A stretch of DNA of 48,358 bases from Acidobacteriaceae bacterium (GTDB lineage: Bacteria; Acidobacteriota; Terriglobia; Terriglobales; Acidobacteriaceae), in the NCBI GenBank assembly GCA_025356095.1, contig JANXUR010000086.1:1-48358 (forward strand), written 5' to 3'. Below the pieces are notes generated by a model, which saw only the letters and a list, made by a program, of their open reading frames with translations, was not told the origin of the DNA and did not search any database. Position 1 is the stretch's first letter. Each line of letters starts with the position of its first letter. Position numbers and translations under genes: made by a program. Shown here piece by piece: positions 2,807-24,804 of the stretch.

Positions 2807-2834
2807 CTGCTGCGTGGGGCACACGTGCTTCCAA

Positions 2835-8168: not shown

Positions 8169-10892
8169 TTACCGGCACCATTCGTCAATCATATTCGCCA
8201 CTAAGCCACTCCAGCCAGTCTGGTGGCTAGCCCCCAAACCCATTCCCGTGTCGCCATGATAGTACTCGTGAAACAGAATGCAATCCCGCCAATGGGGATC
8301 CTGTTGGAATTTCTCGTACTTTCCTGCACTGGGGCGAATTCCATTCCCGTCTCGCTTGAAGATGCCGATCATACGCCTACCGAGATCGGCTGACATCTCT
8401 GAGAGGGACATGGTTCCGGAGGGAGACTGGGAGGTCGAGACTCTGAACTCGGCCCCGAGTGCTTCGTCAAAGCGTAGCAACGACTGCATCAACAGATAAG
8501 TAGTGGGAAACCAAATTGGGCCCCGCCAGTTGGAGTTCCCGCCCATTAGTTTGCCATCCGCTTCACCAGGTTCGTATTTCACCGAGCGGTCGCCAAACAC
8601 AAAAGGCGCATCCCGATGCACCCGCGACAAGCTGCGGACGCCGTGCTCGGACAGGAACTCGTCAGGATTCCCCACCCGCTCCATCACCCGCTTCAGTTGG
8701 CAGGGATCCACGATGGAGAGCACATAGCGCTGGTTACTGTCTCCCGTCCGGAAGCAGGCGTGGCCCACCAAGTCGGCACGATTTTCGAAAAACCAATCGA
8801 GGTCGGCTAGAAACGTAGGATGGCCGACCAACTGGTTCCGGTCGAGAACCTCCACAGCAAACAGCGGGATCAGCCCCACCGCCGAACGCAGGCGGAACTT
8901 CTTGAACTCGCCATTGGGGTAACGAAGCACGTCGTAGAAGAAACCATCCGCTTCATCCCACAACTGATAGTCGCGGCCGCCCATGCGCTTCATCGCGGCA
9001 CCAATGTAGATAAAGTGCTGGAAGAACTTGGTGGCTAAACCCTCATAGGCAGCATTCGTTTTCGCCAGCTCCAGGGCAATCCGCATCATGTACAGGCAAA
9101 AGTGGCCCATCCACCCGGTGGCGTCGGATTGCTCCAAGGTGGCCCCGTCGGGCATGGCCGCGCCGCGGTCAATCACCGTGATGTTATCCAGCCCCAGAAA
9201 CCCGCCTTCGAAGACGTTATTGCCCTCGCTATCCACCCGATTGACCCACCACGCAAAGTTGATCAGCAGTTTGTGGAAGCACTTCTCCAGCCACTGCGAA
9301 TCGCCGCGCCCAGCCTGTGCCTTTTCCTGTTGGTAAACCCGCCAGCACGCCCAGGCGTGCACGGGAGGATTGATGTCGGAGTACTCCCATTCATAAGCGG
9401 GGATTTGTCCATTGGGGTGTAGGAATTGCTCAAACAGCAAATCCCATAAGTTTCCCTTGGCAAATTCCACATCCACCAGCGCCAAGGTTACGCACTGAAA
9501 CGCCAAATCCCATGCGGCGAACCAAGGGAACTCCCACTTGTCGGGCATGGTCATGACGCGCATGGAGTTCAAGTGGCGCCAATGGGTGTTGCGCCTATGT
9601 TTGCGCGATTCGGGGGGGGGCGAAGCCGGGTTATCCCCTTCCAGCCAGCGCTGCACGTCGAACAGATAAATCTGCTTACTCCACAACATGCCGGCAAGAG
9701 CTTGCCGCTGGATCACCTTCTCTTCTGGAGTGGCCTGCGGCGGCTGCACCGCAGCGTAGAATTCGTCGGCGTCTGCGCGACGTTGTGCCACGACAGCATC
9801 TACCTCCGCCATTGGCTCTCGCAGGGAATTCGGCGTCAATCTAAGCCGTACCACGAACGAATCTCCGGGCGCGATGGTGGCGCGGTAGTGGATGCCGGAC
9901 TTGGTTCCCACCCGCAGGGGGTTGGTGCTGTCCTCGCCCCCAACAATTGAACGATGGAAGGCATCTTTCACGTAGGGCGTGGAATTCTGGGAACCGTACA
10001 AGCGCTCATCGTTGGTTTCGTTGTTTGTGAACAGAGGCTCACCGCCGGGTGCTGCATAAAGGAATCTCTTCCCCAGCCGGTAGGGGAAGCGCAGGCTCGC
10101 TGGCGGCTTGGCGGCGGAATCGTCGGCGCAGAGAACGATCGCGCCATCCGCATTCTCCATTTGCGTGATTACAGGCTGTGGCTCAACCTCTCCATTCCAT
10201 CCCCAGGTCTTGCGAAACCAAAGCTGTGGCAGTAGATGAATCTCCGCGGGATCGGGGCCGCGATTGAACGCCTCCATGCGGATGCAGATATCTTCCGGGC
10301 CGCTTTTGGCATATTCGACAACGACGTCAAAATAGCGATCCTCGTCGAAGATTCCGGTATCGAGCAATTCGTACTCGCCTTCACTCGCTCCCCTACGGTT
10401 GTTTTCCTCAATTAATTGTTGATATGGGAATGCGGCCTGCGGATACTTGTAGAGCATTCGCATGTAGCTATGGGTGGGAGTGTTGTCGAGATAGAACCAA
10501 TACTCTTTGACGTCTTCGCCGTGCTTACCCTCATTCCCGGAGAGTCCGAACATGCGTTCCTTGAGGATGGGATCCTTGCCGTTCCACAAGGCGAGTGCGA
10601 ATACCAGGATTTGATAGCGGTCGCAAATCCCGGCAATACCGTCTTCACCCCAGCGGTAGGCTTTGCTGCGAGCGTGGTCGTGCGGAAAGTACTCCCACGC
10701 AGTGCCGTGCGGGCTATAGTCCTCGCGGACGGATCCCCAGGATCGTTCGCAGACATAGGGGCCCCATTTGCGCCAGGGCTGCACCGGTCCCTCGTAGGGT
10801 TCGGTCAGACGCTGCGACTCCTGTGTGCCAAAAAAAGAGGCAGGGTTCTTCGCGGTATCGAAAGGAGCGGAATGGCTCGGTTCTGCAGTCAT
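8169..10892 (-). CDS. Large glycoside hydrolase, GH63/MGH1-like (alpha/alpha)6 barrel
   Basis: 907 residues, the usual size for bacterial 'glucosidase / MGH1-like' proteins. The N-terminal beta domain carries [19 protein letters not shown] and [13 protein letters not shown]. The C-terminal barrel carries family-typical segments [56 protein letters not shown] and [13 protein letters not shown]. The acidic residues in the EWEYSD and SDATGWM regions are the likely catalytic pair. There is no signal peptide, so it probably acts in the cytoplasm on an alpha-linked oligosaccharide or glycosyl-glycerate type compound; the substrate is unknown. It starts 5 nt after the pentahaem cytochrome stop codon, so it is co-transcribed with an electron-transfer gene, which is unexpected. 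Confidence 0.88.
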
Positions 10893-10897
10893 GGGAC

Positions 10898-12289
10898 TCA
10901 GGGCCTCGGTGCGGGAGGCGGGGTCTTCTCCGCCGCCAGCAGCGCGTTCACTTTCTGTAACTGCGCCGCAAAGCGCGGGGCACTGTAGGCCGAGGGATTA
11001 TTCACCAGATCGAAGAGTCCGGCGATGGCTTTCCCAGTGGGCGTATCGTTGTTCTTGTCGGTTCCGCTGTAGGCGGTGTAAAGATCATCTAGTGTCATTG
11101 CCGACTGCTCGGCTGCGCGTTCGCCCTTCGCCGATATCCGGGCACCGTCTTCTGCCAGGCCTCGCATTAGCCGAAGCGTGGTCCCGCGGTCAAACGTGGC
11201 GCTTTCGAACTGCTTTGCCAACTGTTGCGCTGCCGCCGCTGCGCGGCCTGCGGCTTCACTAATCTCTTGGCGATTGCCGCTCAAGTGGCCCATCAGATGG
11301 GCAAGCTTCGTCATTTCGGAGTCGAGCTGCTGCAAAGAATCGCGATTCATCTGGTTGGCAAGGCTGCGAAACACCACGTAGCGCGACTCATTCCATTGCG
11401 GCACCCCGGCCTGGCGACCCGCATAACCTACTTGCTGCCGCCAGCTCTCTTCGGGCTTGGTCAAGCTATGGTGGCAGGCAAAGCAGTCAAGCTCGGCGTA
11501 TTCGGGCCACTGTTCGGTGGCCGCCCGGCGTTGCAGGCGCAAAAGCGACTCCCGCAACTGCACGGCACCGCCCACCATCTCGCTCTGGATGCTGCGCCAA
11601 GGTTGATCCGCTGGTTCCACCCAGTGTTTGGGCATGACGGCGCTGAACAGCTCCAGATCAAAGGTCAAGTCCGGATGGCCCGCAGCGATCATCGCATGAT
11701 CTACGAATTTTTCGGGCGTTCCCAGATGGCAAGTCAGGCAGTTCTCCGCGCGGTGAGTGAGGCTGCGCAAATCCACCATGCCGAGACGAACCGAGTCTTC
11801 GTGTTTCCAATCTCGCGCCGTGTGTGCGCCCAGCCAACCGGAAGCGGGGCCGTGGCAATTCTCACAAGAGACTCCGTCTGAGGCATCGAAGCTGAGGGCC
11901 TTCTTTTCCGTCGGAACATTGAGCGAATGGCAGGCCAGACACTTGCCAGCTTGGCTCGGTGCCCCAATCTTGTCTTTGGGGTCGGCGGCACTCTCGTCCA
12001 GAAGTCGACCAATGCGGCGGGAAGCCTCGTTGGATAAGACCTGAAAGGCGCGGGCATGCTTATCCCGAGTGACCCAGATGGTGTATTCATTCTGCGGAAT
12101 CCGCAAAACCCGGCGGGCTTGCACGCTGCCATGGCAACTGCTCGCGGCGCATCCTCCCGCTCCGTTGAACAGCCCCAATGCTGGCGAGGGATTCGCGGCG
12201 AATGCGCAGCATCCCCCTAACGCAAACAGAACTACCCAAGGTGCGCGAAGATAGGTTCGAGCAAGAGGCAGATTGGGCCAGCGTGACAT
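10898..12289 (-). CDS. Exported pentahaem c-type cytochrome (cytochrome c554-like)
   Basis: Start chosen at ATG 12289 (the frame extends to 12355) because it puts a normal signal peptide first ([18 protein letters not shown]). Numbering from the longer frame, haem sites are CAASSCH at 69-75, a CX4CH site, then CLACH 139, CENCH 164, CLTCH 206 and CFACH 291. After residue 300 a helical, haem-free region (about 300-465) follows. The spacing and the His-rich segments ([27 protein letters not shown]) resemble cytochrome c554-type multihaem proteins. It should be a periplasmic electron carrier. It is divergent from the NuoEF operon across a 263-nt region with several inverted repeats, and leads the operon with the GH63 gene. 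Confidence 0.88.
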
Positions 12290-12376
12290 ACTTTTGTGTT
12301 TCCCCCCAGCGGGCTTGGGTATATCACGATCAAGGGTCGAAAGCAACAATTTCAAAACGGGAAATACTGCCTTGTA

Positions 12377-12452
12377 AGGTAAGTTACCTCCGGTGCAGGT
12401 AGGTTGCTCGGCAACACCTATCGTGCTGCAAATATTGGCGCGCGCATATTTG
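12377..12452. promoter_or_regulatory. Divergent control region with three inverted repeats
   Basis: Between the divergent cytochrome (start 12289) and nuoEF (start 12553): a 13-nt palindrome AGGTAAGTTACCT at 12377-12389; a TTGC-TCG-GCAA core with flanking TAGG/CCTA arms at 12400-12420; and a 7-bp inverted repeat CAAATAT...ATATTTG with a 10-nt centre at 12429-12452. These are candidate operators for co-ordinate control of both sides. None matches the CRP consensus well; the regulator is unknown. Confidence 0.5.
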
Positions 12453-12552
12453 TGGACAACAGGCCCATTTTTCTATATGGTCAAAGCCGAGTGCACCCGC
12501 TGCGCGTTTTCGATGTCGTGAACGATGGAGTAAACCACCAGGCGCTCTTACC

Positions 12553-14223
12553 ATGTTTGAGGAGCTAAGATCCATCCAGGCCGAGTATGGCTACCTGCCC
12601 GCCGAACAGTTGTCGGCAGTAGCTTTGCGTCTCAATTTGCCGGTCAGTCAGATTCACGCGGTCGCTAGTTTCTACCCGCACTTTCATCTTTCCCCGCCGC
12701 CACCAGCCGACGTCCGGGTTTGTTGCGACATGACGTGTCACCTGTACGGTGCTGATCAGAACCGGGCCGATCTGGCTGCGGAGTTTCATAACGATCCGGG
12801 GGTTTCAGTACGGAGCGTTTCCTGCCTTGGGCGTTGCGATTCCGCCCCCGCAATCTCGGTGAATGACCATATTTATTGCCCAGCAGATCGGGCTTCGGCC
12901 GCAGCGTTTGTGCGGGACGCGTTGGCGGGGCGATTGCAGGCACCACCTCCACCCCCAGCTTCCACGCGCGAGCTGGTGTGTGATCCCTATGCCGGGACGG
13001 GAAAGTACGAAATATTGCGCCAGTTGGTGCAGACGCGCGACTTTACAGGGATCATTGCCACACTGAAGGCGGGCGGGCTGCGCGGTATGGGTGGGGCTGG
13101 CTTCCCCACTGGTGCCAAATGGGAGATTGTGAGGAACGCTCCGGGCACCACCAAGTACATCGTCTGCAACGCCGACGAGAGCGAGCCCGGCACCATTAAA
13201 GACCGCTTCATCATGGAAAACCTGCCTTACATGCTGATCGAGGGAATGATTGTTGCCGGTCTGGTGACCGGAGCCAAGCAGGGGATTCTGTACATCCGCC
13301 ATGAGTATGAGCACCAGAAGGAAGTGTTACAGGCTGAAATTGAGCGCTGTTATCAGCAGCAACTTCTGGGGCCGGGAATTCTGGGCGGTAACCTGAGCTT
13401 TGATCTGAAGATATTTGTAAGCCCCGGTGGCTATATTTGCGGCGAAGAAAGTGCGCTACTGGAAGCGATTGAGGGCAAGCGGGCGGAGCCTCGCAACAAG
13501 CCACCATTCCCGGGAACCAACGGCCTATGGAATCAGCCGACCGCTATCAACAACGTGGAAACCTTCACTTTTGCCACGCTGATCTTACTCAAAGGGGTGG
13601 AGTGGTTTCGGGCGCAAGGCAAGAACGGCTGCGCCGGGCCCAAGTTTGTGGGTATTAGTGGCGACGTGGTGCGTCCCGGAGTCTTTGAAGTTCCCATGGG
13701 AAGCAGCTATCGAGAGTTGATTTTTGAATACGCGGGAGGCATATCGCGGGGGCGCACGTTGCTAGGCTTTGCTCCCTCCGGCCCCTCGTCGGGTTATCTG
13801 CCCGCGGCCATGGTGGATCTGCCGCTCGACTGGGACGCGGTGCAGAAAGCTGGCTCAATGGTTGGTTCGGGTGCCATCGTGGTTTGTGCGGATGACCGCT
13901 GCATGTTGGATATGGCGCTGAATGCCGTGCGCTTCTTCCGCAATGAATCTTGCGGAAAGTGTGTTCCCTGCCGAATGGGGTCGCAGAAACTGGTGGAAAT
14001 GCTCACGCGCTGGACCGAGGGCACTAGCTCACAAGGCGATATCAGCCTGCTCGACGAGTTGACGGCTGCCATGAAGCTGACTTCGATTTGCGGCCTTGGG
14101 CAAGTAGTGCCGGTACCGATTGCTTCGGTCTTGAAACACTTTCGTGACGTCATAGATCAACATCTGATGCACCTGCATTGCCCGACCGGGGTGTGTCCGA
14201 TGGGCGGAGGCGCAGCGCGATGA
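12553..14223 (+). CDS. NuoE-NuoF fusion: NADH-oxidising flavo-Fe-S subunit
   Basis: Residues ~1-130 are a NuoE/HoxE-like thioredoxin fold with [2Fe-2S] ligands C57, C62 (CX4C) and C91, C95 (CLGRC). A proline linker (131-136) leads to a full NuoF/HoxF-like domain: FMN/NADH glycine-rich GLRGMGGAGFPTGAKW (175-190), NADESEPGTIKDR (206-218), GGYICGEESALLEAIEGKR (292-310), and the [4Fe-4S] N3 ligands C467, C470, C473 and C513. It should oxidise NADH (or be reduced by a partner) and pass electrons to the next subunit. The same pair occurs in complex I, bidirectional hydrogenases and formate dehydrogenases, but no hydrogenase, formate dehydrogenase or membrane-arm gene is present here. First gene of the plus-strand operon; stop overlaps the next ATG by 4 nt. 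No good Shine-Dalgarno site is visible. Confidence 0.93.
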   Translation: MFEELRSIQAEYGYLPAEQLSAVALRLNLPVSQIHAVASFYPHFHLSPPPPADVRVCCDMTCHLYGADQNRADLAAEFHNDPGVSVRSVSCLGRCDSAPAISVNDHIYCPADRASAAAFVRDALAGRLQAPPPPPASTRELVCDPYAGTGKYEILRQLVQTRDFTGIIATLKAGGLRGMGGAGFPTGAKWEIVRNAPGTTKYIVCNADESEPGTIKDRFIMENLPYMLIEGMIVAGLVTGAKQGILYIRHEYEHQKEVLQAEIERCYQQQLLGPGILGGNLSFDLKIFVSPGGYICGEESALLEAIEGKRAEPRNKPPFPGTNGLWNQPTAINNVETFTFATLILLKGVEWFRAQGKNGCAGPKFVGISGDVVRPGVFEVPMGSSYRELIFEYAGGISRGRTLLGFAPSGPSSGYLPAAMVDLPLDWDAVQKAGSMVGSGAIVVCADDRCMLDMALNAVRFFRNESCGKCVPCRMGSQKLVEMLTRWTEGTSSQGDISLLDELTAAMKLTSICGLGQVVPVPIASVLKHFRDVIDQHLMHLHCPTGVCPMGGGAAR

Positions 14224-16403
14224 GCACGGAAGCGTTGGCGGTGGAGGTCACACTCACGATCGACGGCACCACCGTGTTTGTCCCCAAAGGAACCACGATT
14301 TTCGACGCCGCTCGCCTCAACGGAATTGCCATCCCGACCCTCTGCCACCAGCAAAATGAGAAACCGGTAGGAGTGTGCCGCCTCTGTGTGGTGGATGCTG
14401 GCCAGCGGGTCTTTCCTGCATCCTGCGTTCGCGAAGCAGAGCCGGGCATGAAGATTGAGACCGCCAACTCCGGTGTGGTGGCGGCTCGCAAGACATTGGT
14501 GCAGTTGCTCATGTCCGATCATCCTTCGCCCTGTGCCCGCCAGCAACACACGCATGATTGTGAACTGGAGACGCTGGCGGCGGCTCTCGACGTCCGGACC
14601 TCACCGTTTCCGGCGAAGATCTCGATTCGAGGTCACGATGATTCATCGTCGGTGATTGCGGTGGATCACGAGTCTTGTATTCTTTGCGACCGCTGCATTC
14701 GGGGATGCGACGAGGTTCGCCACAACTGGGTACTGGCGCGGCGGGGCAAAGGCTATCAAGCGGGTATCGCGTTCGATAACAACCTGCCCATGGGGAGTTC
14801 ATCGTGCGTTAGTTGCGGCGAGTGCATGATCTCCTGTCCCACCGGGGCGCTTACCAATAAGCAGATCGTCGGTACTACCCTTGAGCAAGGTGAGGTTCTC
14901 GATCCTGCGGAGCTGCTGGGCCTCCCGGTGTTCCACAATGTCTCGGGAACGTTTCTGCAACTCAATCAGCACGCGGTGGTTAAACGCCATTTCAAAGCCG
15001 GGGAGTTGGTTTGCCGCGAAGGAGACTATGGCTCGTCTGCTTTTTACATTCTGCAAGGCAAGGCCAGCGTCTATCTGGAAAGCGTCATGGGCCATGTGGC
15101 AACACAAGCTGAGCCCAGTTTCTTCCGCAAGCTGACCAGTTTGCTGCGGCCGCGGGAAGAACACGTTCGAAGCGAGGAGGGCTCTCGGAAGTACATTCCG
15201 ATTGACGCGGGGATTGATCTCGCCTACGAGAATCCGGTGGCCGAGCTTGGCCCGGGTGAACTCTTCGGTGAGATGACCTGCATGAGCTATTACCCGCGGT
15301 CGGCGACCGTGCGCGCCACCACCGACTGCGTCATGTTGGAAATGCTGCGCAACGTCCTGGATATTTTGCAGCGCAACAAAAACTTCCGCGAGCAACTGGA
15401 TCGCAACTATCGCGCCCGGGCGCTGGATACTCACCTGCGCAGCGTTCCCATTTTCGCCGATCTGGATCCCGGCTTTATGGATGACCTTCGCCCCGGAGTG
15501 GAACTCATCCGCTATGCGCCGGGCCAGACGATCTTTGCTCAGGGGGACGCAGGAGACAGTTTTTATCTGGTGCGGCTAGGCTTTGTGAAGGTGGCAGAAC
15601 AGCACCCCGGCGGAGACCTGGTGCTGGCCTACATACCGCGCGGTGGATTCTTTGGCGAAATGGCATTGCTTTCGGGCGCACCGCGTTCGGCCACCTGCAC
15701 CGCGCTCGATCACGTTGAAGTCGCACGTATTAACAAGAAGGACTTTGATCATTTCTTGGAACGGTACCCCGTGGTTCGGCAGCGCATGGAAGCGGAGGCC
15801 GCGAGCCGGCGCCAACAGAACCAGGCATCTACCAAGACGCAGCATCTCGACGTAGATCAGTTCTTATCGCAAGGACTGATGGAGGCGCAAAGCCTGTTGT
15901 TGCTGGATCTGGATCGCTGCACCCGCTGTGACCAGTGCGTGCGCGCCTGCGCCGATGCCCATGACGGCGTAAGCCGGCTTGTGCGAGAAGGATTGCGATT
16001 CGATCACTATCTGGTGGCAACTTCCTGCCGGCAGTGTCGCGATCCGCTGTGTATGGTCGGGTGCCCCGTGGGCTCGATCCGCCGTCGGAATTCGCTGGAA
16101 GTCATCATTGAAGACTGGTGCATTGGCTGTGGGCTATGTGCCAATAGCTGCCCCTACGGCAACATCAATATGCATCCGTTTCCGCTGGTGCAGGAGGCGG
16201 CCAATGGTTGGGTGGATGGGCGAAGCGATCACCGCATGGAGCGGCACGTCGCCGAGTCGAGAGTCAAAGCTACGTCGTGTGATTTATGCCATGACCACGC
16301 CGAACCCAGTTGCGTATACGCCTGCCCGCACGATGCTGCGCATCGGGTCAACCCGCTGCAATTTTTCGCCAAAGTTCCCACGCGCATGGAGGGACAGAAC
16401 TAA
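14220..16403 (+). CDS. Multi-cluster Fe-S protein with two cyclic-nucleotide-binding domains
   Basis: Start ATG 14220 overlaps the nuoEF stop (ATGA); 727 residues. Domains: NuoG-like [2Fe-2S] ferredoxin (C42, C53, C56, C69); His-Cys region H101, C105, C114 with the middle Cys replaced (Q108); two [4Fe-4S] motifs (C153-C156-C159-C163 and C196-C199-C202-C206); cNMP domain 1 about 237-385, with a ~45-residue insert at 292-335 and a phosphate cassette FGEM...PRSAT (349-363); cNMP domain 2 about 405-515 with FGEMALLSGAPRSAT (478-492); then a DmsB/NrfC-type four-cluster ferredoxin (Cys groups from 567, 603, 634 and 687). It can be read as an electron wire between NuoEF and the membrane subunit, gated by cAMP or cGMP. 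Both cassettes keep the Glu and Arg that bind the cyclic phosphate. There is no DNA-binding domain. Confidence 0.92.
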   Translation: MSTEALAVEVTLTIDGTTVFVPKGTTIFDAARLNGIAIPTLCHQQNEKPVGVCRLCVVDAGQRVFPASCVREAEPGMKIETANSGVVAARKTLVQLLMSDHPSPCARQQHTHDCELETLAAALDVRTSPFPAKISIRGHDDSSSVIAVDHESCILCDRCIRGCDEVRHNWVLARRGKGYQAGIAFDNNLPMGSSSCVSCGECMISCPTGALTNKQIVGTTLEQGEVLDPAELLGLPVFHNVSGTFLQLNQHAVVKRHFKAGELVCREGDYGSSAFYILQGKASVYLESVMGHVATQAEPSFFRKLTSLLRPREEHVRSEEGSRKYIPIDAGIDLAYENPVAELGPGELFGEMTCMSYYPRSATVRATTDCVMLEMLRNVLDILQRNKNFREQLDRNYRARALDTHLRSVPIFADLDPGFMDDLRPGVELIRYAPGQTIFAQGDAGDSFYLVRLGFVKVAEQHPGGDLVLAYIPRGGFFGEMALLSGAPRSATCTALDHVEVARINKKDFDHFLERYPVVRQRMEAEAASRRQQNQASTKTQHLDVDQFLSQGLMEAQSLLLLDLDRCTRCDQCVRACADAHDGVSRLVREGLRFDHYLVATSCRQCRDPLCMVGCPVGSIRRRNSLEVIIEDWCIGCGLCANSCPYGNINMHPFPLVQEAANGWVDGRSDHRMERHVAESRVKATSCDLCHDHAEPSCVYACPHDAAHRVNPLQFFAKVPTRMEGQN

Positions 16404-16404
16404 C

Positions 16405-17325
16405 ATGCGTATAGACCAGACCCATCGCACGTGGCTCATTGGCAGCACGGTGACCTTGGCCGTAGCGTCGGTGGGATACGGATTCTATGCTGCGTGGTCT
16501 CCAGCGGGGCCGCAGGGGGGCAGCACCGTCGGCATCCTCTACGGAGTCGTAGGTTCGGCGATGATGCTCTTCGCGGGGCTGCTCGGAGCACGGAAAAGCG
16601 TCCCCATCTGGCGTTTGGGCCGGGCCCAGTCGTGGATGCGCGGGCATCTTTGGCTTGGCGTGCTGACGCTGCCGATCATCTTGTTCCATGCGGGCTTTCA
16701 CTTTGGCCACGGACTAACCCGCGGGCTGGTATGGCTGCTGCTATTTGTATGGCTGAGCGGAGTGTTCGGTGCGGCGCTGCAACACTTCATACCCCGGATG
16801 ATGACCCAGCAATTGCCAATGGAAACCATCTACGAGCAGATTGAGCGGGTGCGGCTGCAGCTATGCGACGAAGCCACACGGATTGTGACCGAATGCACTT
16901 CGCGGTTGAGCGGCAATCTTTCGCAAAGCGCCGCCGGTGAGCGTGCGCTCGCCGCCGCCGCTGGAACCATGGGCGGAAACACAGTAGCGTCGGCGTTGCA
17001 GATGGATTCAGAAGGCAGCGCGGCACTGACCGGCTTCTTCCAACGTGAGCTGCAACCGTTTCTGGATGGATCTGCCGCCAAAGGCCATCGGTTGGCAAAG
17101 GCGGCGAGTTCCCGCACCGCCTTTCGAGAGCTGCGAGTATTGCTCCCGCCTTCTGCAGAGGCTTTTCTGGACGACTTGGAAAACATCTGTGAAGAAAAGC
17201 GGCAACTGGACTGGCAACGCACCATGCACCACATGTTGCACGGCTGGCTGTTGGTGCACGTTCCAGCTTCTTATGCGCTTTTGCTTTTGGGTGCGATTCA
17301 CGCGGTAGCAGCTTTGCGATATTGA
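16405..17325 (+). CDS. Membrane b-type cytochrome-like subunit
   Basis: Start ATG 16405, one base after the previous stop; 306 residues. About five membrane helices (10-29, 42-60, 80-100, 106-128, 277-303), with a long soluble section between 130 and 275. Histidines able to ligate haem b sit in helices 3 (H81, H95, H99, H102) and 5 (H279, H285, H299), and in the HH pair before helix 5 (H275, H276), as in ferric-reductase or cytochrome b561-like proteins. I could not assign an exact family. Position between the Fe-S subunit and a tethered decahaem cytochrome implies that it carries electrons across the inner membrane or exchanges with quinone. Confidence 0.75.
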   Translation: MRIDQTHRTWLIGSTVTLAVASVGYGFYAAWSPAGPQGGSTVGILYGVVGSAMMLFAGLLGARKSVPIWRLGRAQSWMRGHLWLGVLTLPIILFHAGFHFGHGLTRGLVWLLLFVWLSGVFGAALQHFIPRMMTQQLPMETIYEQIERVRLQLCDEATRIVTECTSRLSGNLSQSAAGERALAAAAGTMGGNTVASALQMDSEGSAALTGFFQRELQPFLDGSAAKGHRLAKAASSRTAFRELRVLLPPSAEAFLDDLENICEEKRQLDWQRTMHHMLHGWLLVHVPASYALLLLGAIHAVAALRY

Positions 17326-17365
17326 TCGAGATATTGATCGAAACGACTCCAGGGAGGCGTTCTAC

Positions 17366-18787
17366 TTGCGGCGAGTCCGCACTACCAAGTCGCTAGCCAA
17401 GCGGATTGACCTACAGTACTTCACGCGCGCGCATCCGCTGCGGCGCTGGAGGCTGTGGCTCTCTCTTGCGCTGCCGGTGGTGTGTTTGGGAGTATTCTTC
17501 GCGGTGCGGGCGCAAGGCGGACCGAAGGTGTACAGCAGCGGGCCGCTCTCCTCCGCCCACGCCGCGTTGAGCAAGCAGTGTGCGGTGTGCCACGCGCCGC
17601 GGGGTGGTGAATTTCGTCTCCACGTGGATGACCGGGCGTGCCTAGGCTGCCACGATGCGCCTGCGCATCATCAGACAAAGGTTCAGTTCACGCCCGCCTG
17701 CGCAAGCTGCCATCTGGAACATCAGGGCGCGCACAAATTAGCGGAAGTGGACAGCACCAGTTGCGCTCGCTGCCATGCGAACCTGATCACCAAGGCTGGC
17801 ACGCCTCGCTACGCTGCAAATATCACCCGTTTTGACGACGGCCATCCCGAGTTTGCGTGGTTGCGGAATGCGACCGCTGACCCCGGTGGGGTGAAGCTTA
17901 ACCACTACGCTCACCTGCAGCCCGGCTTGCAGGGGCCGCAAGGCAACGTCCAAATGCAATGCGAGGATTGCCATCTGACGAGCGTGGGACAGCCATCTTG
18001 GCCATATGCCAAAGCACCCCAAGCAATGCCAGCAGCGAACGCAGACCCAGCGGCCACGCCTGGGCTGCCGACTTTTCGCGACACCGACTCACGCCGGACC
18101 ATGCAGCCCATCCGCTATGCGCAGCAATGTGAGGGCTGCCATGAGCGCGACTTGCGGTTCGACCCGCGCCCCCCGCTGGGCGAACTCTCCGTGCCGCATG
18201 ACAAGCCGAAAGTGGTGCACCGGTATCTCGTCCAGCAATTTGCGAGCTACATCGCCGCCCATCCCAGCGCCGTCCACGAAGTGGCCCCGCCCGATCGCTA
18301 TCTACCCGGCGACCCCAAGCCTTCCGCACTGGCAGCGCGGAATTCGGCAGAGTGGGTGGATCAGCACGTGGCCCAATCGGAGCGGCTGCTGTGGAACAAA
18401 GGCTGCAAGCTATGCCACACCTTGCGTTTTACTGAGGGCGAAGCGCTGCCTGAGGTACAGGCCTCGAAGATGCAGCCGCGAGGGTTTGCCCACGCTGAGT
18501 TTAGTCATGATTCGCACCGGGCAGTGGATTGTTCGAGCTGCCACGCCCGCGCGCGCAACACCAAGTTGACGTCGGACGTTTCGCTGCCCGGTATCGCCAC
18601 CTGCCGCGCCTGCCATCAGGATAAGGGGCCTGCACAGCAGGCTGCGGACGGCCGTTGCTCGGCTTGCCATAGCTATCACGACTGGACGCAGGAGCAGCCC
18701 ACTCACGGTACGTTCACAATTGAGCAGTTGCGCGGTAAGGCGAAGGTGATCCCTGACGCGGCGCAACCCGGTGGCAATAGCAACTAG
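17366..18787 (+). CDS. Membrane-anchored decahaem c-type cytochrome
   Basis: Start TTG 17366 is supported by AGGGAGG (17351-17357) 8 nt upstream. A single uncleaved membrane anchor lies at about 28-47, followed by a periplasmic domain with ten CXXCH sites at residues 72, 92, 112, 133, 199, 255, 347, 389, 413 and 431 (CAVCH, CLGCH, CASCH, CARCH, CEDCH, CEGCH, CKLCH, CSSCH, CRACH, CSACH). The tight spacing of the first four and last three is like cytochrome c3/c7 modules. Extra His for bis-His ligation are plentiful. It is the last gene of the NuoEF operon and ends 12 nt from the convergent LVIVD cytochrome stop. Likely periplasmic electron acceptor from the membrane subunit. Confidence 0.92.
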   Translation: MRRVRTTKSLAKRIDLQYFTRAHPLRRWRLWLSLALPVVCLGVFFAVRAQGGPKVYSSGPLSSAHAALSKQCAVCHAPRGGEFRLHVDDRACLGCHDAPAHHQTKVQFTPACASCHLEHQGAHKLAEVDSTSCARCHANLITKAGTPRYAANITRFDDGHPEFAWLRNATADPGGVKLNHYAHLQPGLQGPQGNVQMQCEDCHLTSVGQPSWPYAKAPQAMPAANADPAATPGLPTFRDTDSRRTMQPIRYAQQCEGCHERDLRFDPRPPLGELSVPHDKPKVVHRYLVQQFASYIAAHPSAVHEVAPPDRYLPGDPKPSALAARNSAEWVDQHVAQSERLLWNKGCKLCHTLRFTEGEALPEVQASKMQPRGFAHAEFSHDSHRAVDCSSCHARARNTKLTSDVSLPGIATCRACHQDKGPAQQAADGRCSACHSYHDWTQEQPTHGTFTIEQLRGKAKVIPDAAQPGGNSN

Positions 18788-18799
18788 CCCTCTGCTGCG

Positions 18800-21700
18800 C
18801 TATTTGCTTGCGCTGGCAGGCACAGGCGGCTCTTCGCTCACGGTGTATAACTTGCCTTGCCGCAAGTACATCCGCTCCATTTCTTGCTTGTTGAAGGGCC
18901 GGGCACCCCGGCGTCCCAGTACCGCGAGTTGGTTCCCACTTTCGTCGGCAGCACGGTCACGGTCTATTCCTTTGGAGATGGCCAGAGCTGGCGCATGGGT
19001 CCGAAACTCCGCAATCATGCGCGGTGAAGGCCGCGGACTGAAGCCTGCAAAGCCCGGCGTATCCTGAGGAGAAAACAACTGCACTACCTTCATGCCGTTT
19101 TTGCCATCTGCCAGGTAGGCAAACAGACTCGAGCCGACCATACCGATCTTCACGTCGTTGAGATCATTGATGGTGCCGCCGCTGCTGAAGATCTGGTCGA
19201 GCTTCGGAGCCTCGGGCCGCTCCACATCCACCACAGCCAGTCCTTGCGATCCTCCTGCGATGTAGGCATAGGTGCGGGCCACGTACAGGTTACGTGCGTC
19301 CACAAGCGGCACGGACGCGCCTTTTACCATCACGGGCGAGCTCAGATTGGTTACGTCGAGAACCTTCAGGCCCTCTCGATCTACTACGAAAGCGTAGCGA
19401 AACTGCACGGCGATCCCTTTGGGTTCAACCAACAATGGGCTGCCAATTTCCGCCGTGATCTTCGGGGCCAGTGGGTTGTCTATTTCCACCACTACCAAAC
19501 CGCGGTCGCACAGAATGTACGCATAGGTGCCCGCGATGGTGATTCTGCGGGCACCATTCAAGGCCCCTCCCGGATTAAAGGCTAAAGCCCGCTGCAGAAA
19601 GTTATTGGCAGGGTCGCCATCGAGCAGCGTGCCCACGCCGGGGCTCTTGTGCTTCAGGTTCGGATCGCCGACGATGACCAGACCTTCGTACTTGTCGGCG
19701 ACATATAAAAATCCATACATCAAGTGAATGGATTGCTCCTCGTTTTCCTTGCGATGGGTGCGCAGGGGATCCACGCCAAGCGTGGTGGGCGTAGCCACCG
19801 CGGTCGCGTATTTCGTGGGCACACTAAACTTCTGGCCCAGCGGCGATACGGGAGCTGTGGTCATGCGCTCAGACAGTTCTTTGTTGTCAACGTTGGCAAT
19901 ATCAAAGACTCGAAGACCGCCCTTGCCCATCGCAGCGTAAAGATATTCTCCGCGGGCCTGCACGTCTAGGACCTCAGATCCCTCATGGTGATGCGCCTCG
20001 CGGAGTTCGAGATGGGCCTTCTGATGCCCGGCGAAGTCGTCGGGGTAAGAAACCTTCTGGAAGTTACTACCGATGACCGCTGGGGGCTCCTCGTGCTCGG
20101 CGATGGCGACCGCGTCGTATCCGCCGCGACCTTCGGCCACATAGATGTAGCGGCCCATAAAGTTCATAAAATTGGTGCCCTGCAACAAGAGCTGGGCGAG
20201 CCAAGCGTTGTTATTGTTTTCCTGCGAAACGTGGCAGTCGCCGCAGGTCTTGGTTTCCGTGGCCCGAACGGTATGCGGGACGAATGTGCTGAACGCCTGG
20301 CCGCTGAAGCCTTCCGCCGAAATTGTCTGCTGCTGATAGTAGACCCAATCACGGTCAGCGTTTTGGGAACTTACCACCACCGCACAAGCGGACCGTGTCG
20401 GGGCCACGCGATTCCCAGTCACCGTGCCGTCAATGGCCAGCGTATAGATATCGTCGCGTAAGACTTGAAAGTTGTAAGAAGTCCAGTTGCGGGTTAGCAG
20501 GCCTTCGTTATGCAGGGTAGACATTCGTTGATTGGCGGTCATGGAGAGATGGCAGCCATAGCAGGTAGGTGCCCAGGAGGAATGGCAGCTATAGCAGGTC
20601 ATGCGGCTGTTTTTGTGGGCCAGCGCAGCTTCGTCTTTCGGCGAGTCACCCCAAGTGGTGCCATCCTGCTGTATTGTTTTGGCCAGGCGCGATTTCTCGC
20701 TATAGTGCGGGTTCCCCGGAGTAATGGAATCCAGCACCTGCACCACTTCCCACTTCACGCCAAGCTCCACCATCGAACGCTGATATAGCTTCCCGTCGTC
20801 CCAGTAGAACCGGGCTTGCTTTGAGGGCGTTCGCAGCGCGTCCATGCGGGTACCGCCCGAAGGGGCGGCTATCCCTGAGGTGCTTAGAGTCGCGCGCTGC
20901 TGAATGCTGCCGTGGCAATCCACACAGTCAATCTCAATGGCGTTGCGGGTCTCTCCGTAAAGCTTGCCGTTGCCATGGCTATCCTGCTCAAAGTGGCAGT
21001 CAATACATTGCATCCCTTTCTCCAGATGGATGTCTTTCAGGTGCACAGCCTTCTTAAACTTGTCTGGATCGTTAAAGTCCACCGGCTTGTCGTTGGCATC
21101 CAGCAAGGTTCCTTTGCGATCGTGCTTATAGACTGCGCGAAAAACCCATCCGTGGCTATGGAAGTCGGCGAACTGGGTGTGTTGCAGTTTCTGGTTGAAG
21201 TCAGCATCGCCCACCTTTTCCAGAAACTTCTCATCGGACCACAACCCGCGTTGCGCCGAGCGTTCTGGGTTGCGAGTCTGCACCTGCTGCTGCTCTTTCT
21301 CCGAGGGATGGCGTTGCTCTGCCGGGTACATCTTTTCGGCGTCCATCTCGTTGTCCCACCAGGTGTAGCCGAAGTAAGTGGTCACCATGTTCGTGCCGGG
21401 GTGGACGTGGCACACCATGCACTGGCTGGAGGGAATGGCGCGGGTAAACTCGTGGCGTATGGGATGCCCCGGCTCGTCGTGCGGGATGGTGGGGTCCGCC
21501 GAGGCGGAGGTGCCGGAATGTCCCTGCGCGGCATAGTGGCCTGAGTGTTCCGGCGACCGGTCGTTGGCATAGACCACATGGCAGGCGCTGCAGCCGCTAG
21601 CCCTATAGTCTCCCGGCTGGTCATTCGTGCCCGGAAAGTACAGCAGGGGATCGAGCAGGCGAGTCTTCTGTAGGCCGAGGAACACTGGGTCGGTACGGAG

Positions 21701-22540
21701 CTGGGTGCCAAATCCCCTCGAACTTAGCTTCTGATCGGGCTTACCTGGGTCTTCATCCAGCATGGGGTTACCGACTTCCGGCTTCTCCCGCCCTCCTCGC
21801 TCAAAGACACGCAAGATATTGCCGGGTTGAGAAATCTCCCACCGCTGCAAGGGATCAAGGTAAGGCAGCACACCTTTGGTTCGAGTTTCTTCCGCCGTGG
21901 GTGGAGGAAAGGCAGTCAAACGCTGGGGCGTGCCATCTTCGCTGTAACTCTCGCCGAAGTGGGGATCTTTGAAGGGGACCGCGCCGTTGTTGTAGAGCGC
22001 GGCACCCCAAAGCATGGCCCCGTGCGACATCATGCTGGTGCGCACCTTCTGCACTTCTGCTTGGTGGCAGCCGGCGAGGCCACACGTCTGGGCAGCAACC
22101 CGCAAGTCACCGGGGTTCACGAACGCAATGTATTCCGAACTCTCTTGTAGCCATTTGGTGTAAGGCCGCACCGCGTTGGCCGAACTCTTGGCGTTCTCTG
22201 GGAATCGCGGCTTGGGATGCGCCTCGCCCAGAGCCTTCTTGTATTCGGCAGAATCGCGTCCAGCACCCGCTGCGGCCAGAATGGCAGGGTTGCCGCCGTG
22301 GCAATCCGCACAGCCGATGCGAACTGTTCCCGTCGTATGCATGGTCGGGCTGTCGGTGGCGGTATGGCAGGTCAAGCAGCCTCGCGATTTCTGGTCCGCA
22401 TCCGCCGCACTCTGCTGCACCAGCACCATCGCAGTCGCCGGTGTCTGCGACCGCGAAGGCAGCGTGCTAAGGGATAACCCCAGCGCTAGGGCGAGAGGTA
22501 CGATCTTCGTAACTCGGAAGGAACGGGCGCTACGCTGCAT
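18800..22540 (-). CDS. Giant exported decahaem cytochrome with C-terminal LVIVD beta-propeller
   Basis: 1246 residues with signal peptide (about 1-32). Ten haem sites: CLTCH 55, CADCH 77, a CX4CH site CGLAGCH 153, CSACH 317, CMVCH 374, CIDCH 512, CVDCH 539, CYSCH 649, CYGCH 660 and CGDCH 766. From about 795 onward LVIVD-type repeats form a propeller (for example YIYVAEGRGG, GLRVFDIANV, LYVADKYEGLVIVGD, GLVVVEIDNP, GLKVLDVTN, GLAVVDVERPE). Such fusions are predicted to be periplasmic or surface redox proteins. The gene follows the barrel gene by 41 nt, so it is plausibly threaded through or docked on that barrel. Its haem count and length are at the upper end for single-gene cytochromes in this window. 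Confidence 0.92.
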   Translation of the reverse strand: MQRSARSFRVTKIVPLALALGLSLSTLPSRSQTPATAMVLVQQSAADADQKSRGCLTCHTATDSPTMHTTGTVRIGCADCHGGNPAILAAAGAGRDSAEYKKALGEAHPKPRFPENAKSSANAVRPYTKWLQESSEYIAFVNPGDLRVAAQTCGLAGCHQAEVQKVRTSMMSHGAMLWGAALYNNGAVPFKDPHFGESYSEDGTPQRLTAFPPPTAEETRTKGVLPYLDPLQRWEISQPGNILRVFERGGREKPEVGNPMLDEDPGKPDQKLSSRGFGTQLRTDPVFLGLQKTRLLDPLLYFPGTNDQPGDYRASGCSACHVVYANDRSPEHSGHYAAQGHSGTSASADPTIPHDEPGHPIRHEFTRAIPSSQCMVCHVHPGTNMVTTYFGYTWWDNEMDAEKMYPAEQRHPSEKEQQQVQTRNPERSAQRGLWSDEKFLEKVGDADFNQKLQHTQFADFHSHGWVFRAVYKHDRKGTLLDANDKPVDFNDPDKFKKAVHLKDIHLEKGMQCIDCHFEQDSHGNGKLYGETRNAIEIDCVDCHGSIQQRATLSTSGIAAPSGGTRMDALRTPSKQARFYWDDGKLYQRSMVELGVKWEVVQVLDSITPGNPHYSEKSRLAKTIQQDGTTWGDSPKDEAALAHKNSRMTCYSCHSSWAPTCYGCHLSMTANQRMSTLHNEGLLTRNWTSYNFQVLRDDIYTLAIDGTVTGNRVAPTRSACAVVVSSQNADRDWVYYQQQTISAEGFSGQAFSTFVPHTVRATETKTCGDCHVSQENNNNAWLAQLLLQGTNFMNFMGRYIYVAEGRGGYDAVAIAEHEEPPAVIGSNFQKVSYPDDFAGHQKAHLELREAHHHEGSEVLDVQARGEYLYAAMGKGGLRVFDIANVDNKELSERMTTAPVSPLGQKFSVPTKYATAVATPTTLGVDPLRTHRKENEEQSIHLMYGFLYVADKYEGLVIVGDPNLKHKSPGVGTLLDGDPANNFLQRALAFNPGGALNGARRITIAGTYAYILCDRGLVVVEIDNPLAPKITAEIGSPLLVEPKGIAVQFRYAFVVDREGLKVLDVTNLSSPVMVKGASVPLVDARNLYVARTYAYIAGGSQGLAVVDVERPEAPKLDQIFSSGGTINDLNDVKIGMVGSSLFAYLADGKNGMKVVQLFSPQDTPGFAGFSPRPSPRMIAEFRTHAPALAISKGIDRDRAADESGNQLAVLGRRGARPFNKQEMERMYLRQGKLYTVSEEPPVPASASK

Positions 22541-22581
22541 TTGGCCTCTCGGTGTGTCCGGGATCGCTCAACCCCATCTAC

Positions 22582-24804
22582 CTAAAACTGAAGCTTGACC
22601 CCGGTGAAAATGGCAACTAAGGTCTTCTTGTCGTAAATCTGCTGGAACCCTTTATCTGGAATCAGCGTGGATACCCCGCCGGTGAATGTAATGTTCTCCG
22701 TCAGTGGTGGACGATACTCCAAGCCGACACTTAGATCCGTACCGATCCCGTGACGAATGGGGCGCTGAAACAGCAGCAGTTCCAGCGGCTCGGTTCGCGC
22801 AAAGCGCAGATAGTTGGCGTTCGCAAACAAGCGCGTCTTCGGAGTCAGATCAAAATCAGCCCCCGCGTTTGCGATGTAGATGCCGGGATTGACGAAGTTG
22901 GCCTGCCCTTCTTCCTTGTTCGTGCGCAAGCTTGGCAGCAGACTGAACGGCTGAACCAACCCCACGCCGGTTCCGGTCAGACGAATGCCTTCGCGATTAA
23001 AAAAGCTGAGCCCGCTGCCTGCAAAGTGAGTGTCGTCCACAATCGTGTCGAAACCGCGAGCGGTGTCATCCGTTCGGGACGCCCCAGAACGGTTGCTGGA
23101 GTCGCCCGATGCATATAGAAACGACGTCCGGAAGCGCATCCAGTCCTTGTCCACGGAGAGTTCCAGCGCTGCCATTTGGGCGTTAATCTTCAGGCGCCGC
23201 GCTGCGATGGCGTTAAAGTCGTCATGTCCGAAGACTTGGTAGAGGGCATGGCTCACGTTCACGCGTCCGATGTGGCCATTGCTGGTCCAGCCCAGATAGT
23301 AGGCGGCAATGCGGTGGGTGTTCACCTTGTCATTTACCACCAGGCCCACGGGGGCCGGACGCACCAAAAATCCGTTGTCGTCGAAGTGAACTTTTCCGTC
23401 GTCTTGGTTGTAGTGGAAGCTGAACTCGGTGGTATATCCCTTGGCGAAAAAATCTTGCCAGTAAAGATTCGCAACATAGACCTGTTGTTGACGATTCTTG
23501 AAGATCGTGTTCAGGCCGCTGTTGGTGTTCTTCTCCAGCAAATGAAAGTAGGCCAGATTGTAGCTCAGGCGATTCGATTGTAAATTGCCAAACAACCGCA
23601 AGCCGGGCTGTTCATCCACAAAGATAAAGCCACGAAAGTCGCTAGAAAACTGCTGAATGCCTGCCCGAACCGAAACAAAATCGTAGTTCGGACTTAAATC
23701 GTGCAGTTTCGCTTCCACGAAAGCTTCCTGAAAACCGATGTGCGCGTCGAATCGCTGGGGTCCCTCGCGAACGTCCACATTCACCAGACCACGTTCGCGC
23801 GTGTGCAGAAAGTTCAGGTTAAAGGCTGGGGTGACGCGGATGCGGAAGTCAACCGGCCGAAAGCTGGTATCGCCGCGGAACAGCTCGAACGACAGCCGAA
23901 CTGTCTCGGAGATGGCCGCCTGCTCGCCGCGACCGAAGAAGCCCGAGCGTCCGGGATTCTCCGCCGCCACGCCGCTGGGTACCGGCAGTCGCCGACCTTC
24001 GAATTCAGTGTCGCTGGTGGCTTTGAGGTTCAGAAACCAGCGTTGGCCAAGGACTGGGTAATCACCCTTTAGCTTGTTGCGATTGAAGGGGTCATACCAG
24101 CGGCTGCGAGCGTATGGTGTAACCCCTTGGTTGGCGTAGCGGCGCCACTCCGGCATTTCTAGCGTCCACCGATAAGGCTGAAGCGAGAACAGTTCGGAAT
24201 CTGGAGTGATGGCTTCAATCTTCTCCACCGGTGGCGATGGCGCGGTTTGCCGCAATCCAGGATACGGCGACCCGCCCTCTTCGCCACCGGTTGAGGTTGC
24301 ACCCGGCACTCCTGCGGGGCCTTTGGATTCGGGGGTTGCCGGCGCGCCTTCCACTAGAACCACTTCGAGAATCGTGACCAAGGCAGCGGAAAGTGATACT
24401 TGCGAAAAACGATATTGCTGGTATTCGCTCTTCTCCACCACTAGGTCATAAAGCCCGGAGGACACATTGCGAACGCGAATGATGCCGTCAGCGCTTGACC
24501 GGCATACATCGAGCGGGCAGTTCGCCGTCGCGCCATTGCTGCCGGTAAAGGTCAGTCGCGCGCCGACTACCGGGCGGCCGCTCTGATCTTTAATTTCCGC
24601 GAAGACCACTGCCGTGTTGTCTGCAGCCTTACCCGGCACGTGGCGGGATGTACCCGGAATCTGCTCTAGAATGCCACTCGATTGAGACACCGATGCCTGA
24701 CCGCAGGCATACCCGGATAAGATGAGCAGCGTTGCCCACCGCAAGCAAAGAGCACACCGGGATCGCGGCGCAGCAGCGTGCGGTACTTTAGACCTCAGCA
24801 ACAT
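22582..24804 (-). CDS. Outer-membrane beta-barrel with N-terminal carboxypeptidase-regulatory-like domain
   Basis: 740 residues: export signal (about 1-36, hydrophobic ATLLILSGYACGQA), a carboxypeptidase-regulatory-like/TonB-plug-like Ig domain about 65-155 (VFAEIKDQSGRPVVGARLTFTG), a Pro/Gly linker, then a long region of alternating amphipathic strands ending in a C-terminal Phe (GVKLQF), the classic barrel-insertion signal. Strand-rich segments such as RWFLNLKATSDTEF and TRLFANANYLRFAR fit a porin rather than a TonB receptor; no TonB box is evident. Upstream partner of the LVIVD decahaem cytochrome in one operon, as in porin-cytochrome conduits. It contains no haem motif itself. Confidence 0.82.
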   Translation of the reverse strand: MLLRSKVPHAAAPRSRCALCLRWATLLILSGYACGQASVSQSSGILEQIPGTSRHVPGKAADNTAVVFAEIKDQSGRPVVGARLTFTGSNGATANCPLDVCRSSADGIIRVRNVSSGLYDLVVEKSEYQQYRFSQVSLSAALVTILEVVLVEGAPATPESKGPAGVPGATSTGGEEGGSPYPGLRQTAPSPPVEKIEAITPDSELFSLQPYRWTLEMPEWRRYANQGVTPYARSRWYDPFNRNKLKGDYPVLGQRWFLNLKATSDTEFEGRRLPVPSGVAAENPGRSGFFGRGEQAAISETVRLSFELFRGDTSFRPVDFRIRVTPAFNLNFLHTRERGLVNVDVREGPQRFDAHIGFQEAFVEAKLHDLSPNYDFVSVRAGIQQFSSDFRGFIFVDEQPGLRLFGNLQSNRLSYNLAYFHLLEKNTNSGLNTIFKNRQQQVYVANLYWQDFFAKGYTTEFSFHYNQDDGKVHFDDNGFLVRPAPVGLVVNDKVNTHRIAAYYLGWTSNGHIGRVNVSHALYQVFGHDDFNAIAARRLKINAQMAALELSVDKDWMRFRTSFLYASGDSSNRSGASRTDDTARGFDTIVDDTHFAGSGLSFFNREGIRLTGTGVGLVQPFSLLPSLRTNKEEGQANFVNPGIYIANAGADFDLTPKTRLFANANYLRFARTEPLELLLFQRPIRHGIGTDLSVGLEYRPPLTENITFTGGVSTLIPDKGFQQIYDKKTLVAIFTGVKLQF

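Follow-up and report, generated by a model that had tools for sequence, protein, structure and literature searches.

A candidate cyclic-nucleotide-controlled NADH:multihaem cytochrome oxidoreductase, associated with an outer-membrane cytochrome-porin unit, in Acidobacteriota and Planctomycetota

The subject of this analysis is a gene cluster of a soil bacterium, in a 48,358-nucleotide stretch of DNA, referred to throughout as the window (contig JANXUR010000086.1, positions 1 to 48,358, of the Acidobacteriaceae bacterium assembly GCA_025356095.1). The cluster brings together an NADH-oxidising flavoprotein head, an iron-sulfur (Fe-S) protein with two cyclic nucleotide monophosphate-binding (cNMP) domains, a b-type cytochrome, three multihaem c-type cytochromes and an outer-membrane barrel. 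A preliminary description, made from the sequence alone, had named these seven genes and read them as a single route from NADH across both membranes that is switched by cAMP or cGMP (cyclic AMP or cyclic GMP), and all seven are found at the positions and on the strands that it gave. They form three runs, namely the pentahaem cytochrome c5 (minus strand), then NuoEF, the Fe-S/cNMP protein, cytochrome b and the decahaem cytochrome c10 (plus strand), and lastly the barrel and the LVIVD cytochrome (minus strand). In the plus-strand run NuoEF and Fe-S/cNMP overlap by 4 bases and a gap of 1 base separates Fe-S/cNMP from cytochrome b. Open reading frames were taken from stop to stop, so the starts of the features listed here are approximate.

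2835 to 5201, minus strand: CHASE2-class III adenylate/guanylate cyclase, the sole PF00211 match of the genome
10898 to 12355, minus strand: pentahaem c-type cytochrome c5, Cytochrome_C554-like, with four CXXCH motifs and one CX4CH motif
12553 to 14223, plus strand: NuoE-NuoF fusion (NuoEF), by its domain matches (2Fe-2S thioredoxin fold, Complex1_51K, SLBB, NADH_4Fe-4S) an NADH-oxidising flavoprotein head with 2Fe-2S, flavin mononucleotide (FMN) and 4Fe-4S
14220 to 16403, plus strand: Fe-S/cNMP protein, with a NuoG-N/HydA1-like Fe-S head, two cNMP domains and four C-terminal 4Fe-4S sites
14985 to 15359, plus strand: cNMP domain 1, seen as two Pfam matches flanking an insertion
15507 to 15767, plus strand: cNMP domain 2, with conserved cassette residues
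16405 to 17325, plus strand: b-type cytochrome of 306 residues, with His81/His95 and His285/His299
about 17366 to 18787, plus strand: decahaem c-type cytochrome c10 with one N-terminal transmembrane anchor; start codon uncertain
18800 to 22540, minus strand: decahaem cytochrome with a C-terminal LVIVD beta-propeller, nine CXXCH motifs and one CX4CH motif
22582 to 24804, minus strand: outer-membrane beta-barrel with an N-terminal carboxypeptidase-regulatory-like domain; the model has about 18 strands and is AlgE-like
24980 to 26539, plus strand: HbpS-like protein with a possible lipobox (by eye), a likely third member of the outer unit

A scan for relatives of the Fe-S/cNMP protein, from which the best 80 of 99 loci were kept, shows how far this set recurs. 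Genes in these loci were called by codon usage, and many of the loci stop early, at a contig end or at the limit of the 10-kb flank. Their record titles are mostly Acidobacteriota, with four Planctomycetota (L065, L068, L079, and L080). The Fe-S/cNMP gene is present in all 80, cytochrome b in 78, NuoEF in 76, c10 in 75, and c5 in 67, and the outer and signalling genes are found in fewer (LVIVD 39, barrel 28, HbpS-like 28, cyclase 25). In 70 of the 80 loci a single strand carries NuoEF, Fe-S/cNMP, cytochrome b, and c10 in that sequence, and a divergent c5 comes next in 63 of those 70. The exceptions are L065 and L068, with NuoEF and Fe-S/cNMP only (the genome of L068 has cytochrome b, c10, and c5 elsewhere, in L136), L079 and L080, where cytochrome b and c10 are turned round, and six further loci that miss one or two of the four core genes, several of them at contig ends. 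Since the order is kept in 70 of 80 loci and the ligands are near-invariant in alignments of 24 to 78 rows, the gene set is not due to chance. The conserved order holds for the core; the barrel-LVIVD pair often lies outside the fetched locus. Two loci in this collection, L078 (titled Bordetella parapertussis, 66% identity) and L063 (Rhodanobacteraceae, 59%), are Acidobacteriota-like, and their records are probably mislabelled bins. A GH63/MGH1-like glycoside hydrolase gene (8169 to 10892, minus strand, in the window) shows synteny with the module across 17 of the 80 loci, mostly beside c5 and in L026 and L071 between c10 and LVIVD, and a gene that by eye resembles a cytochrome P450 lies upstream of c5 in 14 of the 80 (for example L034, L046, and L052).

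The head, named as a NuoE-NuoF fusion in the earlier description, is nearer to NAD-linked hydrogenases than to complex I. The closest solved relatives of NuoEF are HydB proteins of NAD-linked hydrogenases (5e-114), and the best match of the Fe-S head of the Fe-S/cNMP protein is HydA1 (5e-42). The NuoE/NuoF cysteines are conserved in the alignment. The Fe-S/cNMP polypeptide runs from 2Fe-2S and NuoG-like Fe-S sites through two cNMP domains to 16 cysteines, enough for four 4Fe-4S sites, which are kept in 77 or 78 of 78 rows. In the NuoG-type His-ligated cluster (residues 100 to 113, counting Ser2 as 1) one His and two Cys are present in 78 of 78 rows; the fourth NuoG-cluster Cys is lost, which leaves the N-terminal NuoE/NuoF/NuoG ligand set of complex I incomplete. 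It is nonetheless the NuoEF and NuoG-N domains that would suggest an ordinary complex-I-like NADH dehydrogenase head feeding quinone, with the cytochrome genes as unrelated neighbors. This reading is strongly disfavoured by the conserved association, and we regard it as very improbable. Cytochrome b is present in 78 and the decahaem in 75 of the 80 loci, and other flavoproteins can replace the head while cytochrome b and the decahaem stay, as described below. Quinone-binding and membrane-arm subunits are absent from the window cluster and were not recognised by eye among the recurrent neighbor families either, and the complex I of this genome (NuoD, NuoF, and NuoG) is encoded on another contig, C93. 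As had been claimed, the window genes scanned (105 to 32857) include no subunit of a complex I arm, a hydrogenase, or a formate dehydrogenase. A complex-I-like or hydrogenase partner for NuoEF was also sought among the neighbor families that recur in at least six loci and was rejected, as none was recognised there (judged by eye, without a Pfam scan). Elsewhere in this genome a different NuoF does have a formate-dehydrogenase-like neighbor. On contig C10 (L002) a third NuoF-family gene has a formate-dehydrogenase-alpha-like frame on one side and a HoxU/HydA-like frame on the other, a set that from its gene content is a separate NAD-linked enzyme.

The 306-residue protein encoded next provides the predicted membrane step. 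Its four histidines, H81/H95 and H285/H299, are invariant in 75 of 75 rows and lie in two helices with a 14-residue spacing, and two helices that each carry two His 13 to 14 residues apart are the bc1/NOX-like pattern of two stacked haem b. The four invariant His support a di-haem b cytochrome and hence the transmembrane b-haem step that had been assigned to it. The model has about five long hydrophobic helices, and hydropathy alone gives three transmembrane segments in the window protein and five in the L098 homologue. The protein has no Pfam or NCBIfam match, its sequence finds nothing better than E 1.3 in the PDB, and its model has no Foldseek match at E 0.001, a second look giving generic helical bundles only. 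In the multihaem cytochromes the haem motifs are near-invariant once open reading frames far shorter than the window protein are removed: c5 has five in 66 of 66 aligned rows, c10 has ten in 68 of 70 (L021 and L037 fall short), and the LVIVD cytochrome has ten in 23 of 24 (L070 falls short).

That the cytoplasmic electron partner is NAD(P)H is best supported by loci in which unrelated NAD(P)H-type flavoproteins are found on the same core. In type B (L097, L098, and L100) Fe-S/cNMP, cytochrome b, c10, HbpS, barrel, and LVIVD form one run without NuoEF, Pyr_redox_3 is fused to the cNMP-4Fe4S protein (Pfam), and in L098 the decahaem carries forkhead-associated (FHA) domains. Type C (L101, L103, L104, L111, and part of it in L102) has Fe-S/cNMP, cytochrome b (in L103 unlabelled by the gene caller and matched in the cytochrome b search), a decahaem, and a further protein, which in L104 has FHA; the input is a Pyr_redox_2-FHA-Fer2 protein (Pfam in L101, L103, L104, and L111). 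In type D (L105, L106, L107, L108, L118, L119, L120, and L122) a single chain matches both the Fe-S/cNMP and the cytochrome b profiles, and its partner in L105, L107, and L118 is one chain of FHA, haems, 4Fe4S, and Pyr_redox. Predicted transmembrane segments flank the haems in L107 and L118 and part them from the FHA and flavin domains; the haem block is flanked on both sides in L098 also, and L105 shows the first segment only. L099 has an FHA-FAD_binding_6-NAD_binding_1 protein. In L114 a type II NADH dehydrogenase (NDH2) is fused to a cNMP domain (2357 to 3991, plus strand), near c5, LVIVD, barrel, HbpS, a class II phosphodiesterase (PF02112), and a cyclase, and from its domains it is another protein whose NADH oxidation may be under cyclic-nucleotide control. 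Among the Planctomycetota sampled, L133-L135 have LVIVD, barrel, HbpS, Fe-S/cNMP, cytochrome b, and c10 together, and L137, L139, and L141 have NuoEF. All of the swapped input proteins that were scanned are NAD(P)H-type flavoproteins, and the NADH input proposed earlier is supported by them. A PP2C phosphatase and a Ser/Thr kinase lie near the L103 variant (12455 to 17154) and an FHA-kinase near that of L139 (15428 to 16894), which suggests phosphorylation control where FHA domains occur.

Control by cAMP or cGMP is, from the conserved cassette residues and the adjoining cyclases, the likeliest role of the cNMP pair, as had been proposed. In domain 1 the Glu and Arg of the phosphate-binding cassette are present in 78 of 78 rows, and in domain 2 the Glu is kept in 77 and the Arg in 74 of the 78. 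By pattern search L097 and L100 have two cassettes and L098 has at least one that is plain. The genome (3.53 Mb, rated 100% complete) encodes one class III cyclase. Its gene is in the window, where 5.7 kb separate it from c5 and 7.4 kb from NuoEF. The family of this cyclase forms a cluster present in 24 of 81 loci, the window included. A class III cyclase of any kind is found in 25 of the 80 related loci, where about 0.75 would be expected by chance. (This expectation is the mean chance for the 50 loci searched, scaled to 80; these 50 include all 25 with a cyclase, so the frequency is 25/80.) Among the 50 carrier genomes, 49 have at least one cyclase and 23 exactly one, which in 13 of the 23 is inside the fetched locus. 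The cyclase is 3' of c10 in L013, L016, and L045, between c5 and NuoEF in L029, beyond the barrel in L007, L067, and L077, and between Fe-S/cNMP and c10 in L079 and L080. In L079 and L080 a cyclase and a PF02112 phosphodiesterase are both within the cluster, and in L114 both are beside LVIVD. MBL-fold genes resembling the L079 phosphodiesterase occur in 11 of the 80 loci; a general cyclase-phosphodiesterase pairing was dropped, with PF02112 confirmed only in L079, L080, and L114.

The preliminary description had named relatives that routinely lack the barrel-cytochrome pair as grounds for refuting its reading, and here the outcome is mixed. LVIVD is absent from the fetched flank in 41 of the 80 loci, and 33 of those 41 genomes have it elsewhere (72 of 80 overall), from which we conclude that the pair is in most cases present but not linked to the core. 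In that search of flank-negative genomes 1 of the 34 with a match was scored absent because its match was below 300 bits. The association is also seen in two genome samples. Among 197 Acidobacteriota genomes, drawn evenly and with our own included, 19 have LVIVD and cytochrome b (often on different contigs), none LVIVD only, 13 cytochrome b only, and 165 neither (Fisher 2.6e-18). Among 149 genomes from the phylum to which L079 belongs, a sample that contains the genomes of L068 and L079, 16 have a strong LVIVD match, 12 a strong cytochrome b match, and nine both (p 2.8e-8), leaving seven with LVIVD only and three with strong cytochrome b only; with any cytochrome b match counted, 13 of the 16 have both. 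Both p-values are inflated by relatedness, and LVIVD matches below 300 bits were scored absent (8 of the 27 matching Acidobacteriota genomes, 30 of 46 in the L079-phylum sample). The cytochrome b-only Acidobacteriota loci inspected (L101, L104, L109, and L110, four of the 13) include cNMP modules without LVIVD (L101, L104, and L110) and, in L109, a cytochrome b paralogue beside a 4Fe4S-Pyr_redox protein, a pair with no cNMP match. That LVIVD is a mere neighbor was considered and is made unlikely by the co-occurrence in 19 of 19 genomes.

The LVIVD cytochrome in turn keeps close company with the barrel. A barrel gene is in the locus of LVIVD in 27 of 39 cases in the first set and 28 of 28 in the later set, within 400 bases in 25 and 25 of these, and in the 12 loci with LVIVD and no barrel LVIVD is always at or near the locus end. 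(The locus sets overlap, L124-L131 and L136 being genomes already among the first 80 loci.) The barrel gene is thus adjacent to a multihaem cytochrome gene, as in porin-cytochrome conduits. Of the later loci that contain LVIVD, 18 of 28 have an HbpS-like gene no more than 4 kb away from it. In the first set the figure is 8 of 39, and there the gene often adjoins c5 instead. It is a likely member of the outer unit.

Based on the observed gene content, domains, conserved ligands, co-inheritance, and cyclase proximity, we propose with moderate confidence that the cluster encodes a cyclic-nucleotide-controlled NADH:periplasmic multihaem cytochrome oxidoreductase that is coupled to an outer-membrane cytochrome-porin unit. 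That the proteins form a complex, and likewise the gating, direction, acceptor, and surface location, we infer. NADH would be oxidised at the FMN of NuoEF, and electrons would pass to the NuoG-like Fe-S head, past the two cNMP domains, and on to the four 4Fe-4S clusters. A stacked pair of haem b would then carry them through the inner membrane to the anchored periplasmic decahaem, from which they would continue via the pentahaem cytochrome and the decahaem-LVIVD protein, with the porin and the HbpS-like partner, to an acceptor that is probably at or beyond the outer membrane. The cNMP pair is flanked by the two Fe-S halves of a single polypeptide; cAMP (or cGMP) from the neighboring cyclase would bind to it and open or close the path. 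Outward transfer from NADH (about -320 mV) to c-type haems would be downhill both in redox terms and along the membrane potential, and would conserve no energy. Such a path would bypass proton pumping and electrons would run down the membrane potential, so that a gate makes sense. The enzyme might serve as an electron overflow valve or in respiration on low oxygen or solid acceptors, and since outward flow would be downhill we prefer these roles, overflow or the use of another acceptor, to one in NAD+ reduction.

Several observations weigh against this mechanism and bear on different parts of it. On the input side, NuoEF is missing from the fetched stretch in types B to D and in L133-L135, and the His-ligated NuoG-like cluster has Gln, Glu, or His at its fourth ligand position in each of the 78 rows. 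As to the gate, the cassettes appear from a pattern search to be degenerate in type C (L101, L103, L104, and L111) and in several type D loci (L108, L118, L119, and L122), so that cNMP gating is not universal. Our genome has seven other cNMP-domain places and no PF02112 match, and its lone cyclase may therefore serve CRP-like regulators instead. Of five MBL-fold genes scanned, those of L079 and L080 match PF02112 and those of L039, L053, and L074 do not, the cyclase frequency has only the chance reference given above, and the cyclase-bearing loci are related and hence non-independent. The seven other cNMP places, the degenerate cassettes, the relatedness of the loci, and the three MBL-fold genes without PF02112 would also speak for the cNMP domains being structural relics or other sensors, with the nearness of the cyclase as inherited synteny and cAMP acting via CRP-type regulators. 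We consider this on balance unlikely, given the Glu and Arg kept in every row of domain 1, the several different positions of the cyclases relative to the core, and the cyclase and PF02112 phosphodiesterase inside the cluster in L079 and L080.

On the outer side, eight of the 80 genomes show no LVIVD (L042, L051, L056, L058, L059, L064, L066, and L079; completeness not given), and the barrel is modelled with about 18 strands and a mean pLDDT of 62.6 (21 sequences), its best PDB match being AlgE (E 3.8e-14). With modest confidence we take it from this model for an 18-strand AlgE/Occ-type porin rather than an MtrB-like barrel. The latter has about 26 strands and sheathes a decahaem, and we know of no AlgE-like pore that holds one. 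With an AlgE-like barrel no sheath for a continuous outer-membrane wire is in evidence; the porin might serve to let in a substrate, or else the LVIVD protein might dock on it. The earlier claim of a route across both membranes therefore stands in part: the inner module is tied to the barrel-LVIVD pair by the co-occurrence and by the single run in three variant loci, and a continuous wire is not supported. The same barrel evidence would also fit an inner module that feeds a periplasmic reductase, for example of an oxyanion, NO, or peroxide by c5 or decahaem-LVIVD, with the porin admitting the substrate and the surface not being reached. Also in keeping with this are the likeness of c5 to Cytochrome_C554 and the weak similarity of the cytochrome part of LVIVD to ExtM of a selenite/tellurite operon (E 2.3e-21, 75.7 bits against a cut-off of 800). 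However, we recognised no catalytic haem signature, six non-motif His of c5 (present in 65 or 66 of 66 rows) suffice for bis-His haems, and LVIVD matches no solved structure better than E 0.18. We judge the periplasmic reductase to be somewhat unlikely, though it deserves real weight.

The proposed outward direction has its own alternative, in which periplasmic or external donors reduce the decahaem and electrons pass inward by way of cytochrome b to NAD+, again with cNMP as the control. The NuoEF/HydB-type heads to which this one is homologous are reversible in NAD-linked hydrogenases, and cathode electron uptake into Shewanella is described (PMC5829830). Unless the donors are very reducing, inward flow would have to be driven against both the redox span and the membrane potential, and none of the window cluster genes was recognised as a pump or coupling subunit. 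We hold it to be distinctly unlikely.

The proposed NADH:multihaem cytochrome oxidoreductase shares parts with several known systems. As in MtrCAB and Geobacter Pcc/Ext, a barrel gene lies beside a large multihaem cytochrome gene and periplasmic multihaem cytochromes are present. Unlike those systems, the barrel models as AlgE-like with 18 strands, the cytochrome has an LVIVD propeller, cNMP or FHA domains are present, and the input is an NAD(P)H flavoprotein with cytochrome b; the inputs of known conduits are quinol oxidases such as CymA, CbcL, and ImcH. NuoEF and the Fe-S head best match HydB and HydA1 of the NAD-linked hydrogenases (HydABC, with the HoxEFU diaphorase), but the cluster has no hydrogenase active-site subunit, one Cys of the His-ligated cluster is lost, and the Fe-S subunit runs on into cNMP domains and a four-cluster ferredoxin part. 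In NOX/FRE enzymes NAD(P)H reduces a flavin and electrons cross the membrane on two stacked haem b, and NOX5 is ligand-gated. The same order of NAD(P)H, flavin, and two stacked haem b is proposed here, in contrast with no sequence match, a separate Fe-S chain, a multihaem cytochrome as acceptor, and a cNMP domain as the would-be gate. Within the same phylum, extEFG/mtrF homologues and proposed extracellular electron transfer are described for the electroactive Holophaga and Geothrix, and the passages of that report on its search for known conduit genes make no mention of the present set (PMC11748539). A term search of PMC4245776 found no mention of Acidobacteri, NADH, or cyclic, and searches of the open-licence literature found no paper that joins cyclic nucleotide-binding, NuoE/NuoF, forkhead-associated, Acidobacteri, and multiheme (in that spelling only). 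To our knowledge and in the literature searched, the parts are known and their assembly with second-messenger control is not described.

Two further features of the window lie apart from these genes. At 6159 to 7037 (minus strand) is a sugar-isomerase-like gene of the AP_endonuc_2 fold, the predicted N-terminus of which is a short KPI tandem repeat that the true start may follow. A helix-turn-helix gene followed by a HipA-family gene (26694 to 28303, plus strand) is likely to be a HipBA-type toxin-antitoxin pair.

Most extracellular electron routes described to date seem to begin at a quinol oxidase and to be regulated through gene expression. If the proposed mechanism is true, the route described here would start at NADH, be switched after translation by a second messenger, and serve Acidobacteriota and Planctomycetota as an overflow path for electrons that they can control. 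A set of unannotated cytochromes that recurs with it would thereby gain a likely role. More tentatively, at somewhat less than even probability, we suggest a so far undescribed family of transmembrane electron-transfer complexes, spanning the two phyla, in which cAMP or cGMP allosterically gates direct electron flow from NAD(P)H to the outer membrane and in which interchangeable NAD(P)H inputs on one conserved cNMP/4Fe-4S/cytochrome b/decahaem core make what amounts to a bacterial ligand-gated electron channel; in the FHA variants the signal may perhaps be phosphopeptides. A test case is Granulicella aggregans M8UP14 (L074), the record of which is titled as a strain; its locus also has a cyclase, an MBL-fold gene, and an HbpS-like gene, and its genome has an LVIVD-barrel pair away from that locus. 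If true, the module would be a naturally modular, ligand-gated electron wire.

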